DNA of 35,155 nucleotides, taken from contig JAOAQX010000009.1 in the NCBI GenBank assembly GCA_025210805.1, forward strand, positions 1 through 35,155, given 5' to 3'. How positions within the stretch are numbered: position 1 is the first letter of the stretch; the number at the start of each line of letters is the position of its first letter. The translations under genes were made by a program, and so were the position numbers. A model generated the notes under the pieces. It saw only the letters and a list, made by a program, of their open reading frames with translations, ran no database searches and was not told the origin of the DNA. This DNA comes from Flavobacteriales bacterium. GTDB taxonomy: Bacteria; Bacteroidota; Bacteroidia; Flavobacteriales; CAJXXR01. Shown one piece after another: positions 3,334 through 35,155 of this stretch.

Positions 3334-3554
3334 TGATTCGAAGAATTAAAGACATATTTGAAAAACAAGCATTTGGAGTTTGCTCAAGATTTTCACATAA
3401 AGTGGGAATGCGAGTGGGAACCATTCGCCTGCTTTTTATTTATTTAAGCTTCATTACTTTGGGATCGCCTCTTATTATTTATTTTACTTTAATGTTTTTA
3501 ATGAGAATTAAAGATAGTTTTATCAAAAACAGAAAAAGCGCTTTTGAAATATAG
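3333..3554 (+). CDS. PspC-like small membrane protein
   Basis: A 73-residue protein with the PspC-domain pattern: an amphipathic N-terminus, FGVCSRFSHKVGM, then VRL-type TIRLLFIYLSFITLG and a hydrophobic hairpin ending MFLMRIKD. PspC domains are found in envelope-stress proteins of the phage-shock response, and short stand-alone versions are common in Flavobacteriia. I chose the ATG at 3333, which overlaps the upstream stop, over an upstream in-frame ATG at 3291 that would lie inside the DUF2851 gene and add residues outside the domain. The 3' end overlaps the start of the K+ channel gene by 11 bases. A regulatory role here is inferred from family and context only. Confidence 0.8.
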   Translation: MIRRIKDIFEKQAFGVCSRFSHKVGMRVGTIRLLFIYLSFITLGSPLIIYFTLMFLMRIKDSFIKNRKSAFEI

Positions 3555-4575
3555 ATATTATTTAGAGAGACTCTTTAGTAGTAGTGAGTTAATTTTTGCC
3601 CTCAGATGGTTGGCTGGCGTTATTATCATAGGAATTATAGGTTTTCTTCTTATAGAGGATCTTTCTATGGTAGACTCTATTTATATGACCGTCATTACCA
3701 TTTCTACCGTAGGGTTTACAGAAGTAAAGCCACTCAGTCCAGAAGGAAGGATTTTCACCTCTATCCTTATTGTGATGAGTGTACTTACTTATGCCTATTT
3801 GATTTCTGTTTTTACCCGATTTGCTATAAAAACAGAATTTTATAAAAAAATGAAAGAACGTGTGATCGTGAAAGAAGTATCTAAACTAAAAGGGCACACC
3901 ATTGTGTGTGGCTACGGAAGAAACGGAAGACAAGCCATCGAAACCTTAAAAAGGCATAACAAAAGCTTTGTGGTAATAGATAATAATGAAGCGATCATTG
4001 AAGAAATCAACGATTTTGGAATTCTTGCTATTGAAGGTGATGCTACCCGAGATTCTATCTTAGAAAAAGCCAATATATCTGAAGCTGAAGCCTTAATTGC
4101 AGCACTTCCTCATGATGCAAACAATCTTTTTATCGTACTTACTGCAAGACAATTAAAAAAAGATATCAAAATTATTTCTCGTGCAACCAATGACAATACC
4201 GTTTCTAAACTTTATGTGGCTGGAGCCAATAATGTGATTATGCCAGACAAAGTGGGCGGAAGCCACATGGCAACCTTAGTAGTAGCACCTGATGTAGTGG
4301 AGTTTATAGATGAAATTACCGTAGGGAAAGCCTCAGGAATCACTTTAGAAGAAGTTTCTTACAACGAAATTCCTGAAAATTTAAAAGGTAAAACAGTAAG
4401 AGAACTAGGAATCCGAGAAATGTCAGGATGCACCATTGTAGGGTTTAAAACCCAAACGGGAGAAATAGAAATTAACCCTTCACCAGACTCCCAACTAGAA
4501 AAAGGATGCAAGCTTTTTGTATTAGGAAATCCTGAACAAATCAAAAAACTCAATACCCTTTTTGGACTCAACTAA
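3544..4575 (+). CDS. K+ channel, two TM plus RCK (TrkA-N/TrkA-C)
   Basis: This 343-residue subunit has one membrane helix (about 16-38), a pore helix with filter TVGFT (residues 55-59), a second helix (about 70-95) and cytosolic RCK domains. TrkA-N starts near 118 with the nucleotide-binding GYGRNG at 123-128, and TrkA-C covers about 255-343. This is the MthK-like layout, in which four subunits form the pore and the RCK ring gates it. The filter departs from the usual TVGYG or TVGFG because the final glycine is threonine. The start is a TTG at 3544 inside the end of the PspC-like gene; the first in-frame ATG would delete TM1, so the non-ATG start is preferred. It stops one base before the next gene's ATG. 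Confidence 0.88.
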   Translation: MKYRYYLERLFSSSELIFALRWLAGVIIIGIIGFLLIEDLSMVDSIYMTVITISTVGFTEVKPLSPEGRIFTSILIVMSVLTYAYLISVFTRFAIKTEFYKKMKERVIVKEVSKLKGHTIVCGYGRNGRQAIETLKRHNKSFVVIDNNEAIIEEINDFGILAIEGDATRDSILEKANISEAEALIAALPHDANNLFIVLTARQLKKDIKIISRATNDNTVSKLYVAGANNVIMPDKVGGSHMATLVVAPDVVEFIDEITVGKASGITLEEVSYNEIPENLKGKTVRELGIREMSGCTIVGFKTQTGEIEINPSPDSQLEKGCKLFVLGNPEQIKKLNTLFGLN

Positions 4576-4576
4576 T

Positions 4577-5494
4577 ATGAAGAAAAAAATACTCGTAACT
4601 GGAGCAAATGGTATGCTCGGGCAAAAAATTGTAGATTTATTACACAATAACCCCCAATATACCACTCTATTTTGTGCCCGAGGAAGCTCAAGACTGAATC
4701 CCGATTATGACATAAATTACCAGATACTTGATAGTGGAGACAAAGAAAAAGTAACAGACTTAATTACTCATTTCGAACCCGATGCCATTATCAACTGTGC
4801 CGCCTTCACACATGTAGACGCCTGTGAAGATCAGCCCGAAGCCTGTGATTTACTCAATATAAAAGCCGTTGAATTTTTAATTGATGCTATAGGAGAAAAA
4901 AATATTCATTTAGTGCATATTTCAACAGATTTTGTATTTGATGGAACTGTAAAAACAGCTTATAAAGAGACCGATGCAATCAATCCTTTGAGTAGATATG
5001 GATGGAGTAAAGCGGAGTCTGAAAAATTACTCAAAAACTCCAAAATCCCCTACACCATTCTTAGAACCAGCTTTGTCTATGGAATTCTTCATGATAATAC
5101 TCGAATGAATTTTGTAACTTGGGCAAAATCTAGTTTAGAAAACAAACAAAAAATTACGGTAATCACAGACCAATTTAGACCGCCAACTTTGGCAGAAGAC
5201 TTGGCAAAAGCTTGTGTTTCATCAATAGAAAGAAAAGCTTTTGGGATTTTTCATACAACAGGACCCGAAACATTTTCCATCATTCAACTTATAGAAATGG
5301 TGGCAGACCATTGGAAACTGGACAAATCTTTTATTCTTCCTACAGAAACCAAAGATTTAAACCAAAAAGCCCAAAGACCGCAATATACTTTTTTTGATAT
5401 TTCAAAAGCTAGAGAACAATTGAATTATCAGCCTACAAGCTTTTTAGAAAGCCTTAAAATAATTGAGAAACAACTTTTAGATACCCAAAAATAA
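4577..5494 (+). CDS. RmlD-like SDR family sugar-nucleotide reductase
   Basis: This 305-residue extended short-chain dehydrogenase has a Rossmann nucleotide-binding motif GANGMLG (residues 9-15), STDFVFDG at 116-123, and the catalytic Tyr-x3-Lys pair Y141 and K145 (RYGWSK). Length and motifs match dTDP-4-dehydrorhamnose reductase (RmlD), which uses NAD(P)H to finish dTDP-L-rhamnose. No rmlA, B or C genes lie nearby, so a different sugar nucleotide or another small substrate is possible. The ATG at 4577 begins the conserved beta-strand directly; a TTG 15 bases upstream only adds residues inside the preceding gene. Four bases separate its stop from the symporter gene. Confidence 0.82.
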   Translation: MKKKILVTGANGMLGQKIVDLLHNNPQYTTLFCARGSSRLNPDYDINYQILDSGDKEKVTDLITHFEPDAIINCAAFTHVDACEDQPEACDLLNIKAVEFLIDAIGEKNIHLVHISTDFVFDGTVKTAYKETDAINPLSRYGWSKAESEKLLKNSKIPYTILRTSFVYGILHDNTRMNFVTWAKSSLENKQKITVITDQFRPPTLAEDLAKACVSSIERKAFGIFHTTGPETFSIIQLIEMVADHWKLDKSFILPTETKDLNQKAQRPQYTFFDISKAREQLNYQPTSFLESLKIIEKQLLDTQK

Positions 5495-5498
5495 CCTT

Positions 5499-7115
5499 AT
5501 GAAGAAATCACTACTCTTATTATTAAGTCTAGTAAGCACACTTTCGAGTTTTGCCCAAGAAGAAAAAGGGGTCGATAAACTCATTGACGAAAAATTTGGA
5601 GACGCCACAGGATGGTTTGTTAAAGCTATTTTTTATAAAATTCCTCTTTCGGATACACTTCAAATTCCTTGGGTATTAATTGTATTGATTATTGGAGCCT
5701 TATTTTTTACTTTCTACTTTAAGTTTATCAATATTAGAGGTTTCCTCACTTCTATCCGTATTGTGCAAGGAAAATATGACGGCTTAGAAGGAAATAATCA
5801 CGTAGCTTCTTCAGACGTTTTCCCAGATGCAAAAGACTCTGATATAGATAGTAATACTATTCAAGATAATCCAGATACGATCCGTGTAGAAAGCGATAAT
5901 CATGGAGAGGTTTCCCATTTCCAAGCCTTAACAGCCGCATTGTCAGCTACAGTGGGAATTGGGAATATTGGAGGTGTAGCCGTTGCTCTTTCTGTTGGAG
6001 GTCCTGGTGCTACTTTTTGGATGATTATTGCAGGACTGATCGGAATGTCTTCAAAATTTATAGAATGTACATTGGGAGTTAAATACCGTGAAATAGACAA
6101 AGACGGAACTGTTTTCGGAGGTCCTATGTACTATCTTAAAAAAGGAGTTAAAGGAACAGCTGGAAAAATTTTGGCGGCTGTTTTTGCCGTAATGTGTATC
6201 GGAGGTTCTTTTGGAGGAGGAAATATGGTGCAAGTAAACCAAGCCTTTGAAATGGTACTATCTGTAACAGGAGGAGAAAATAGTTTTCTATATGGTTACG
6301 GAGCTCTTTTTGGAGTAGTTATGGCTATTTTAGTAGGAATTGTAATTATCGGAGGGATCAAAAAAATTGCCAGCGTAACCGATAAAATTGTTCCTTTTAT
6401 GGTCGCAGTGTATGCCTTAGCAGTAATTGTTGTATTAGTTGTTAATTATGATCTTATTCTTCCTGCTTTTGGACAAATCATTGACGGAGCCTTCGGGTGG
6501 AAACCTATTGCCGGTGGAGCCATTGGAGTCGTTATTGTTCAAGGATTCAAAAGAGCAGCATTTTCTAACGAAGCAGGAATCGGTTCGGCTTCTATTGCCC
6601 ATTCTGCGGTAAAAACAAAGCATCCTGCATCAGAAGGTCTTGTAGCATTACTAGAACCATTCATAGATACCGTAATTGTATGTACGATGACTGCTTTGGT
6701 TATTGTAATTTCTAATATGGATGGATCTGTTTTTGCATACGGAAACGAAGTATCTGCTGGAGTAAAAATTACTTCAAGTGCCTTTGCCGAAACCATTAGT
6801 TGGTTTCCTTATGTATTAGCCATTGCCGTGGTTCTATTTGCATTTTCATCAATGATTTCTTGGTCTTACTATGGATTCCAAGCTTGGTCTTACCTTTTTG
6901 GAAGAAGTAAAATGGTGGGGAATGTGTATAAAGTCATCTTTTGTTTATTCGTAATTGTTGGAGCTGCATCGAGTTTAAAATCCGTATTAGACTTCTCTGA
7001 TGCCATGATTTTTGCCATGCTCGTTCCTAATATGATCGGGTTATTTTTCTTAGCACCTGTTGTTAAAAAAGAATTATCAAAATATATGAGTGCCATAAAA
7101 ACACTTAAATCATGA
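5499..7115 (+). CDS. Alanine or glycine:cation symporter, AGCS family
   Basis: A 538-residue polytopic inner-membrane protein of the sodium:amino-acid symporter (AGCS) family, which imports alanine or glycine with Na+ or H+. Family signatures are visible: FQALTAALSATVGIGNIGGVA near residue 140-160, the GGPGATFWM segment, GGPMYYLKKG, and FSNEAGIGSASIAHSA in the second half. The first 20 residues look like a cleavable signal peptide ending SSFAQ. An acidic insert (about residues 98-138, many Asp, Ser and Asn) separates the first membrane helix from the core; both are additions to the minimal family fold. Its stop overlaps the next gene's start (ATGA at 7112-7115). Confidence 0.93.
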   Translation: MKKSLLLLLSLVSTLSSFAQEEKGVDKLIDEKFGDATGWFVKAIFYKIPLSDTLQIPWVLIVLIIGALFFTFYFKFINIRGFLTSIRIVQGKYDGLEGNNHVASSDVFPDAKDSDIDSNTIQDNPDTIRVESDNHGEVSHFQALTAALSATVGIGNIGGVAVALSVGGPGATFWMIIAGLIGMSSKFIECTLGVKYREIDKDGTVFGGPMYYLKKGVKGTAGKILAAVFAVMCIGGSFGGGNMVQVNQAFEMVLSVTGGENSFLYGYGALFGVVMAILVGIVIIGGIKKIASVTDKIVPFMVAVYALAVIVVLVVNYDLILPAFGQIIDGAFGWKPIAGGAIGVVIVQGFKRAAFSNEAGIGSASIAHSAVKTKHPASEGLVALLEPFIDTVIVCTMTALVIVISNMDGSVFAYGNEVSAGVKITSSAFAETISWFPYVLAIAVVLFAFSSMISWSYYGFQAWSYLFGRSKMVGNVYKVIFCLFVIVGAASSLKSVLDFSDAMIFAMLVPNMIGLFFLAPVVKKELSKYMSAIKTLKS

Positions 7116-26326: not shown

Positions 26327-27709
26327 TTATTTATACCTTCTTCTCACACCCAAAATAAAGAAAGCTAGAACGATTGTATTGATTAATATTTCTACCTTTA
26401 GTAGGTATTTTGGAACTTCATTATTAAAACTTGAGCCAATTTTCAAAAAGGGCAATGCATCAATACCTCCCAATAAGTACTCTATTTTAACACTCTCTAA
26501 AAATTTAAATAGAGACCAAGCATTTTCATGTATTGGTGAAAAATCATTTATAATCCAAATATTAATAAAAGGCCAACCAATGAAAACTAAAAAAAGTAAT
26601 ATACCCAAAGGTTTGGAATAATCAACAGTATATCCCCCTACATAATAATAAATTTGATGAACAATCCATTCCCAACTATATTTATTCTGAAGATTAAGTA
26701 CTCTTCTTTTCATTTCCATTTCCGAAAAATACGCTTTACCAACAAACTCTATCGAACTATTCGATACGAATGATATTTTTAATTGTCTATATAACTCTTC
26801 CATGCCCTTAAAATGCTTAATAATATCACCCCCCTTATCAGGTTTATTTTCCCTATATAAAATAATTCGATTTGATTTTCCCTCATTGAAATTACAATTC
26901 ATAAAGTGAATTGTAGAAATATTTGTACTTCTAATACTCCATTTATTAATATCGCAACTACTCACAATAATATTCCCAGTAAAACTTACGTAATTCAACA
27001 ACACGGAACCATCCAGATGATTAATACTTAAATGACTACCTAAAAATCGAACACCTGAAAATTCCATAAAATTATTTACATGCTTCAAATTTATATTCCA
27101 GAATCTTGTACTATTCCCTAAAAATATAGCATTTGTAAACAATAGTTTTGCCTTCTCAACTGTAATACTATGCCATGTAAAGTCCTTATTGAATACGCAG
27201 TCCGTAAAGTCTACATCCACATCATTCCTAAATTGAGAATTCTCAATTAGAAAAAACCCATCAAATCTCACTGAATAACAATCCATTCCACAATCAAGTT
27301 CAGTCCCAGAGAAACTAATATCACCACCTAGAATCGAATTACTAAAGGTTAATACATTTTTAAAATGAGCTCCATAACCACTTAACTTTTTAAAAAACAA
27401 ATCTCCTTCTAAACAAACTTCATTCTCGAATGTAGAATTATTAAAGTTAATATCTTTAAAATGTGATTGCGAAATTTTTATTTTGCCTTTAAACAGGGCA
27501 TTAGCAAATACAAAACTTGTTTCGCTCTTAAACAGTTTAGAAATATTAATATTTCCTTTAAATTCAGAAAGATTAAAAAGGTAATCACCTTTTTTAAATG
27601 GTAAATCAGAAAAATCAATATCGGTAGTGAATTTACAAGTTGTAAAATCCATTCTTCCCTGTTCAACAAATTGCCTAAACTCCTTATTATTTATTTCCTC
27701 TATTGACAT
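26327..27709 (-). CDS. Pentapeptide-repeat protein with channel-like C-terminus
   Basis: A 460-residue protein. Residues about 20-285 form degenerate repeats with F or N every five to ten positions (INFNNSTFENEV, VDFTDCVFNKDF, HFMNCNFNEG), the signature of a pentapeptide-type beta-helix. A linker (MEELYRQLKISF, then KAYFSEMEMKRR) precedes YVGGYTVDYSKPLG and two membrane segments (about 368-388 and 436-456) separated by a re-entrant-like region around YLLGGIDALPF. This order resembles pentapeptide proteins carrying an Ion_trans_2-type pore, but a canonical selectivity filter is not evident. No signal peptide is present. It is single, with AT-rich flanks. Confidence 0.7.
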   Translation of the reverse strand: MSIEEINNKEFRQFVEQGRMDFTTCKFTTDIDFSDLPFKKGDYLFNLSEFKGNINISKLFKSETSFVFANALFKGKIKISQSHFKDINFNNSTFENEVCLEGDLFFKKLSGYGAHFKNVLTFSNSILGGDISFSGTELDCGMDCYSVRFDGFFLIENSQFRNDVDVDFTDCVFNKDFTWHSITVEKAKLLFTNAIFLGNSTRFWNINLKHVNNFMEFSGVRFLGSHLSINHLDGSVLLNYVSFTGNIIVSSCDINKWSIRSTNISTIHFMNCNFNEGKSNRIILYRENKPDKGGDIIKHFKGMEELYRQLKISFVSNSSIEFVGKAYFSEMEMKRRVLNLQNKYSWEWIVHQIYYYVGGYTVDYSKPLGILLFLVFIGWPFINIWIINDFSPIHENAWSLFKFLESVKIEYLLGGIDALPFLKIGSSFNNEVPKYLLKVEILINTIVLAFFILGVRRRYK

Positions 27710-34590: not shown

Positions 34591-35155
34591 TTATTTTTGC
34601 TTCTTTTGAATTTCATTGATTTCCTTTTTTGTTAAACCTGTGAGTTTAACAATGGTCGCAATATCAATTCCAAGTTTTAAAGACTCAATAACCACATTCT
34701 TTTTCTCTTCTTCAATTCCTTGTTCGATCCCCTGTTCTATTCCTTGTTCTATTCCTTGTTCAAAACTATAATCCAAGGAGTTTTGGATATCCCGATAATA
34801 TTTCAAACTTCCTTCATAGTTTTCGTATTCGTCACGGGTCATTTTTGCTACTTCGGCGGCTTCAAAAAGTTTTTCGAAAATGGTTTCTCTTAGAGCATCA
34901 GGTACTCTATCAAGTTTATGGAGGTTTTTTATCACATAAAGCCATTTATCAAATCTGGTTTCTAGTTCGCCAACAGACTTGTTAAAATTGGGCATTTCGA
35001 GGTAGATAAAAGTAAGCTTATCATAGAATACTTTGTGGGTGTCAATATCCACCAACTGCACTTCGTGGAGGTATTTTTCTTTTTCCTCCTCGGTGTCGCC
35101 ATCATTGTCAAATACAAAATCGAGAATCCCGATAGTGTAAACAGATTTTAGTTCA
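34591..35155 (-). CDS. Rpn/PD-(D/E)XK nuclease family transposase, partial
   Basis: The reading frame is open to the right edge, so this is the C-terminal part of a longer gene (188 codons visible). From the edge inward it reads SVYTIGILDFVFD, a polar stretch, HEVQLVDI, KVFYDKLTFIYLEMPNFNK, and then a helical region. This matches the C-terminal two-thirds of Rpn-type recombination-promoting nuclease / PDDEXK transposase proteins. The nuclease core residues lie mainly off the window. A run of four EQGI units (encoded by 34714-34761) precedes a helix-turn-helix-like end (LGIDIATIVKLTGLTKKEI). The GTG at 35061 is internal, not a start. Confidence 0.82.
   Translation of the reverse strand, partial: ELKSVYTIGILDFVFDNDGDTEEEKEKYLHEVQLVDIDTHKVFYDKLTFIYLEMPNFNKSVGELETRFDKWLYVIKNLHKLDRVPDALRETIFEKLFEAAEVAKMTRDEYENYEGSLKYYRDIQNSLDYSFEQGIEQGIEQGIEQGIEEEKKNVVIESLKLGIDIATIVKLTGLTKKEINEIQKKQK
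34714..34761 (-). repeat. Four in-frame 12-bp repeats (EQGI) in Rpn-like gene
   Basis: Four consecutive 12-base units each encode Glu-Gln-Gly-Ile with only third-position differences. They form a predicted helical linker before the C-terminal helices. Such short in-frame tandem repeats can change copy number by slippage without breaking the frame. Confidence 0.85.

Follow-up and report, generated by a model that had tools for sequence, protein, structure and literature searches.

Two-TM pore-loop K+ channels (PF07885; Kir/KirBac, KcsA, NaK and the SthK pore) consist of a first membrane helix (TM1), a re-entrant helix region and a second membrane helix (TM2). The filter is the feature by which pore-loop channels are generally identified. 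In the soluble pentapeptide-repeat proteins Qnr, MfpA and AlbG, the repeats form a beta-helix which carries no membrane module. In Hailong, HalA is reportedly accompanied by a neighbouring nucleotidyltransferase, HalB, and is said to bind oligodeoxyadenylate. This anti-phage system is treated in passages of PMC13275509 and PMC12265719 and appears as a reference-list entry in PMC12483538. The protein family described here shares the TM1, re-entrant region and TM2 of the channels, and the repeat type and beta-helix of the Qnr group (profile against QnrB1, E 4.9e-7). It differs from the channels by the lack of a TxGYG-type filter in 23 members and by the beta-helix and TPR-like hairpin standing in front of the membrane module. 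It differs from the Qnr group by the presence of that module, and the repeats of the protein studied here are far more degenerate. Among the literature matches listed (titles and abstract starts), no description of this architecture as a channel was found.

The window, i.e., the whole 35,155-nucleotide stretch of DNA that was analysed, corresponds to one entire contig of a 3.12 Mb genome of a Flavobacteriales bacterium. The 460-aa minus-strand ORF was confirmed at the position given by a sequence-only reading of the same DNA (Table 1). Its start codon is hardly doubtful, since the stop-to-stop frame counts 461 codons. The product, hereafter the window protein, matched the pentapeptide family PF13576 of Pfam (E 7.1e-7, 29.8 bits for a cut-off of 27), and no match was obtained in an NCBIfam scan. 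A shuffle test of phenylalanine at lag five was marginal, the value being reached by 85 of 2000 shuffles. The pentapeptide repeats are real, though degenerate. An AlphaFold2 model, built from an alignment of ten family members, showed the beta-helix with ten-residue pLDDT means mostly of 75-94, decreasing to 67-70 at residues 131-150. The structural matches of the model, among those listed, were parallel beta-helices, with Z up to 18.1. The two arms of the helical hairpin were modelled at residues 296-316 and 320-341, and hydropathy peaks at 369-387 and 437-455 agreed with the modelled TM1 and TM2. The beta-helical region and the two membrane helices following a linker were thus found as first proposed. 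The loop between these helices, which had been called short, is about 41 residues long and was mostly modelled with a pLDDT of about 40. The TPR-like hairpin displays the family motif lYRqLKxnyEdxxdyxxAgdFhygEMEMrR in alignments; matches to TPR profiles were weak (E 3.6 and worse for the family profile, 0.26 for the hairpin of relative L086).

Table 1. Features of the beta-helix/two-TM gene; coordinates are those of the window.
Feature	Coordinates	Strand	Basis or remark
Whole ORF	26327..27709	-	460 aa, including stop codon
Beta-helix, degenerate pentapeptide type, residues ~20-275	26885..27652	-	PF13576, AlphaFold2, structural matches
TPR-like helical hairpin, residues 296-341	26687..26824	-	Alignments, AlphaFold2 model, weak TPR matches
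Helix preceding TM1, residues 346-361	26627..26674	-	Alignment, model; relatives read ...LYxxxSGYGER
TM1, residues 365-389	26543..26617	-	Hydropathy, AlphaFold2
Inter-helix loop, residues 390-430	26420..26542	-	Model (low confidence here), alignment; corresponds to pore helix/filter/turret
Missing K+ filter position, P420-S427 (PFLKIGSS)	26429..26452	-	Alignment against TTLGYGD of L019/L086
TM2, residues 431-459, into terminal basic tail RRRYK	26333..26419	-	Hydropathy, model; relatives: RRRFKR and similar

The genes flanking the ORF are housekeeping genes. From their Pfam families, we take the neighbours to be PhoD, 5-formyltetrahydrofolate cyclo-ligase and thioredoxin-reductase-like oxidoreductase genes, as well as presumed glyoxalase-superfamily, HgmA_N and acyl-CoA dehydrogenase genes; one neighbour is a 396-aa ORF without a Pfam family. 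The window has 42 ORFs of at least 80 aa; Pfam scans of 20 of them, flanking genes included, detected no nucleotidyltransferase. Judged by its flanking genes, the gene stands alone, as initially noted. In genome G001, from the same family and 83% complete, the cyclo-ligase gene adjoins the reductase gene and the beta-helix/TM gene is absent. The GC content of the gene is 28.6%, compared to 32-40% in 14 other genes of the window. A recent foreign origin suggested by this low value was rejected: the GC3 of 0.23 is similar to that of four of the five neighbours (PhoD, 0.33), so that composition makes no case for recent transfer. Promoter and terminator scans around the gene remained at chance level. 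Elsewhere in the window, positions 3544-4575 encode a two-TM channel of the ordinary kind (Ion_trans_2, E 7.4e-13), which carries TrkA-N and TrkA-C domains and the filter-like sequence STVGFTE, and a PD-(D/E)XK transposase-family gene fragment is located at 34591-35061, close to the contig end.

The gene is rare: of the 60 and 99 relatives screened, none but the window's own genome carried it. Two profile searches (A2 and A6) of the 395 genomes of the phylum yielded 10 matching genomes each, the window's own among them; some of these matches were partial or filter-bearing, and no more than 7 or 8 candidates were evaluated in any genome. Altogether 22 distant relatives were aligned with the window protein. 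They represent at least seven phyla and include sequences from plasmids and from one viral contig. L011, L007 and L003 were found within the same phylum. L025-L032, eight of the 78 stretches from one search, came from records of Acidobacteriaceae, Ignavibacteriales, Nitrospinaceae/Nitrospinota, Deltaproteobacteria, Salinibacter and Planctomycetota. L024 lies on the viral contig, L033 on a Pseudoalteromonas plasmid and nine relatives on actinobacterial plasmids. These ten plasmid rows were hand-picked from lists of 2, 93 and 77 records of a plasmid collection, and their location says nothing about enrichment; most of the listed plasmid relatives are annotated merely as 'pentapeptide repeat-containing protein'.

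The relatives share just 17-27% identity with the window protein. The whole window protein matched L011 by tblastn with an E-value of 1.8e-16 in a database restricted to the retrieved loci, and when seven sequences were compared, its C-terminus matched L003, L011, L007 and L018 with E-values of 2e-8 to 1.5e-4. Direct searches with the window protein confirmed no close relative among 46 candidate stretches of genome contigs and none among 13 of viral contigs, found no relative in phages, and gave two weak matches in plasmids, to the beta-helix only. Single-protein scans of viral contigs with L028 and L025 detected no relative, and tblastn searches of phages with the L028 C-terminus and with L024 were without a match; the pore region of L086 matched no phage records other than four whose annotation is that of ion-channel or K+-transporter genes. 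Sequence comparison places the window protein in the family of the filterless relatives, whose common order is established: beta-helix, TPR-like hairpin, SGYGE, TM1, loop, TM2 and a terminal basic tail. This tail, with three to five K/R within the last ten residues, is present in all 23 rows. The 23-row counts given here and below exclude the divergent L020, L018 (same gene as L031), the broken copy L017/L023/L114/L116 (G182), the partial, interrupted or weak L021, L022, L111 and L115, the weak partial L004-L006 and L008-L010, and second copies beside L117 and L118. The N-terminus is cut or short in L007 and L026, and the pentapeptide-like stretch of L003 lies in a neighbouring frame.

Some features concern individual relatives. 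As judged by eye, a Cys/His motif ending in C-x-x-H or similar precedes the beta-helix of L018, L025, L029, L032 and L024 and is absent from the window protein. On the viral contig (L024:4325-7405), the family gene at 5269-6483 is situated between ORFs resembling, by eye, the halves of a terminase large subunit. G182 (L017/L023), of the same genus as G089, which carries L003, contains a broken copy of the L003 gene with internal stops beside the same neighbour gene, and this is a loss of the gene in progress. In two Nitrospinaceae genomes (L027 and L030) the flanking genes are the same by eye, except for one small ORF in one of them, and this kept position suggests that the gene is maintained there. 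The gene is found in both beside an oxidoreductase gene which by eye resembles L-aspartate oxidase.

A TxGYG-type K+ filter signature was absent from the last 75 residues of all 23 rows, including the window protein, by pattern search. The absence of the filter is therefore established for the aligned family. The loops of the 23 rows differ greatly in length. At the filter columns, 18 of the 23 rows read [FL][QR] (FQK, LQR, FRS or LRG), as do 9 of the 14 that remain after removal of nine related actinobacterial rows, and the alignment indicates that the filter site in the relatives is not random. The window protein is without [FL][QR], and by eye it also lacks the TM2 proline present in 16 of the 23 rows. 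In an unrooted tree of 26 rows, the two filter-bearing relatives L019 and L086 fell on one side of a branch supported at 99/97. Most of the deep forks were open or weak, and the longest end branch (3.33 versus a median of 0.96) was that of the window protein, whose composition is odd, so that the tree settles neither the order of events nor the placement of this protein. Since the K+ filter is ancient in the wider channel family, its loss is the more economical interpretation, and the family probably descends by filter loss rather than the filter having been gained.

The kinship to pore-loop K+ channels was revealed through the family. Compared to all PDB sequences, the filterless profile A6 (13 members) gave Kir channels as top matches, accounting for 24 of the 28 rows with a best E-value of 0.02, and the two membrane helices and the pore helix between them were aligned in register. 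L019 (G159) and L086 (G038) differ from the filterless family in having kept a canonical K+ filter, TTLGYGD. L019, itself a member of PF07885 (Ion_trans_2, E 7.1e-13), aligns with the family over the helix preceding TM1 and all that follows it, and L086 from the linker hairpin, which it also possesses, through the pore; the N-terminal part of L086 is beta-helix-like by eye only. With hhalign, the filterless profile matched L019 at 4.7e-10 (13 sequences) and 1.2e-8 (23 sequences), and L086 at 2.9e-8 (23 sequences), compared to 0.13-0.59 for two reversed and five shuffled controls. The phage family phrog_15350 matched both the filterless L024 (1.1e-13) and the filter-bearing L086 (8.3e-11) over linker plus pore; at E-values up to 0.01 it had no match to L028 or to the window protein.

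A membrane-domain HMM of the filterless members, run against 1450 ORFs of the retrieved loci, ranked the family and the broken copy first. L019 (E 3.8e-4), a Gordonia ORF (6.9e-4) and the filter-bearing L099 (0.011) came next, and most of the remaining channels did not stand out from background. Pfam Ion_trans_2 itself showed no match to the window protein at E-values up to 10, and its match to L024 reaches only 0.65. A channel set mostly of voltage-gated type was weakly matched by the filterless profile (hhalign E 0.011), and the evidence of kinship consequently comes from the filter-bearing relatives together with the searches by fold and against the PDB.

The membrane module of L028 was modelled from an alignment free of any K+ channel, with modest quality (mean pLDDT 66.4, pTM 0.50). 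A pore-helix-like helix was predicted in its loop at residues 137-152, with a pLDDT of about 83-86. In Foldseek, 49 of the best 50 PDB matches were pore-loop channels (KirBac3.1, probability 0.98), the E-values of these best 50 being all 0.1 or more. VIA, which re-aligns the list of Foldseek and is not independent of it, returned 50 pore-loop channels of 50, including SthK (Z 11.2, rmsd 2.2, 91 residues). The one other Foldseek match, at row 33, was 9ma5, a cryo-EM entry of 2026 whose title says no more than 'a transmembrane protein'. A channel fold was thus predicted in a relative. The profiles and models together support shared ancestry of the family's membrane module with pore-loop K+ channels, which would extend to the window protein via its family kinship. 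The two-TM channel layout lacking a recognisable K+ filter, proposed at the outset, agrees with these results. The expected pore geometry appeared in the predicted L028 module and not in the window protein's own loop. The window protein is a real, intact and divergent member of a broad filterless pore-loop branch with a beta-helix head.

The layout had also been compared with that of membrane-gating effectors of defence systems, and this likeness is only suggestive. The best Foldseek PDB match of the whole window model was indeed HalA (9nyi; E 4.2e-3, probability 1.00), with low TM-scores of 0.26/0.34. The family profile also matched the HalA sequence weakly in the beta-helix region (E 0.011); soluble pentapeptide proteins and designed beta proteins ranked higher, HalA being 18th among the 22 PDB rows. 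HalA was not among the matches of other queries (for one of them, the best 60 of 197), and its absence from the best 50 VIA matches of the window model is no evidence either way. HalA further differs by its reported nucleotidyltransferase partner, of which there is none among the scanned window proteins. A search against a viral structure library gave no match at E-values up to 0.001. PADLOC-DB 2.0 contained no match for the window protein, nor for its relatives L086, L019, L028 and L034.

Homologues among defence-type genes, for which the sequence-only reading had suggested a search, were encountered in a few cases, and many other relatives lie among ordinary genes. The filter-bearing L086 (L124:3134-12999; TFTTLGYGD) is located downstream of integrase and PD-Lambda-2-like HigB/HTH genes and upstream of a gene for an HNH-like protein scoring below its cut-off (24.7 versus 27.5 bits) and of one for a NACHT protein (ATPase) that is Avs1b-like. 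L086 is itself a candidate defence effector. L011 is found near an integrase, adjoining PLD (DrmC-like, PADLOC 3.7e-13) and N6/N4 methylase genes. The divergent L020 (L083:3-5670, G299) is near type I RM methylase and specificity genes; a nucleotide-cyclase-domain ORF near it, at the end of the stretch, is weakly PycC-like. At L079:5397-11171 (G223), an integrase, a filterless family gene, a gene for a DrmC-like PLD-domain protein and an N6/N4 methylase gene are close together, possibly as a small restriction cassette. The surroundings of the window protein, L003, L007, L026, L027, L029, L030 and L032 are ordinary genes; the neighbours of L025 and L028 are also ordinary apart from a PIN-domain gene, and L031 adjoins a ParA-like gene. 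Profiles were used for the window and for the PIN genes; the other neighbours were assessed by eye. The ten plasmid regions revealed no constant partner, CoiA-family genes following in two and HNH genes in two. With many relatives among ordinary genes, no synthase found nearby and no constant plasmid partner, a defence role for the window gene is at most possible.

We propose as the best reading a sensor-gated pore without K+ selectivity, with a probability of about 0.45. Because basic tails follow TM2 and basic residues precede TM1, both termini of this membrane protein would, according to the positive-inside rule, be cytosolic, and the beta-helix would be located in the cytosol. The beta-helix is probably a cytosolic sensing or binding domain, and it is its role as a sensor that we infer. 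It would be coupled through the TPR-like hairpin and the interfacial helix to the two-TM module, which would most likely assemble as a tetramer. Binding of a ligand or partner to the beta-helix might then lead the hairpin and the interfacial helix to pull on TM1 and TM2, opening a tetrameric pathway without K+ selectivity and changing membrane permeability or potential. A broader proposal, which we regard as rather doubtful, is that of a widespread single-gene family in which the beta-helix sensor drives a defence or stress pore where a new [FL][QR] loop took the place of the K+ filter, non-selective for K+ and perhaps large or anion-passing.

It is quite conceivable, if below even odds, that conduction has been lost and that the channel-derived module only anchors and oligomerises a beta-helix scaffold binding protein or nucleic acid. 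The missing filter signature and the very unequal loop lengths are in line with this, as are the window protein's loop, devoid of confident structure, and the ten-row C-terminal alignment, where the membrane-side linker hairpin holds most of the invariant or nearly invariant positions; parallel beta-helices may also often serve as binding platforms. A mere anchor, however, need not keep [FL][QR] in 18 of 23 rows or the well-predicted pore-helix-like helix of L028. For the window protein, given its low-confidence loop and missing [FL][QR], loss of conduction is nearly as likely as a pore. An anti-phage or stress effector resembling HalA, gated, kept closed by a signal and released upon infection so that growth stops, would account for the Foldseek match of the whole model, the defence-type genes near L086, L011 and L020, and the relatives on plasmids and on one viral contig. 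We consider it unlikely in view of the poor TM-score, the low rank of the sequence match, the absence of a nucleotidyltransferase among the scanned window proteins, the many filterless relatives situated (mostly by eye) among ordinary genes, and the lack of PADLOC matches to the window protein and four relatives. That the gene is an ordinary orphan, decaying and functionless in a single lineage, seems very improbable: its restriction to the window's own genome within the sets of relatives screened, the adjacency kept in G001 without it and its long tree branch would fit, but the 460-codon frame is intact with linker and both TM helices, the GC3 is like that of four of the five neighbours, and the distant relatives are intact too.

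Whether as the sensor-gated pore that we favour or as a scaffold derived from a channel, the family has a kinship which the annotation 'pentapeptide repeat-containing protein' misses. It may represent a little-known type of membrane pore under the control of a sensor, or a former channel now serving as an anchor. If the broader proposal of a defence or stress pore were true, the filter-bearing versions in defence islands would correspond to a shared sensor head with two kinds of pore. If the family does not conduct, it would be a clear case of a channel turned scaffold; if it does, it would provide a natural test of the K+-channel scaffold without its filter, with a beta-helix as the gate.
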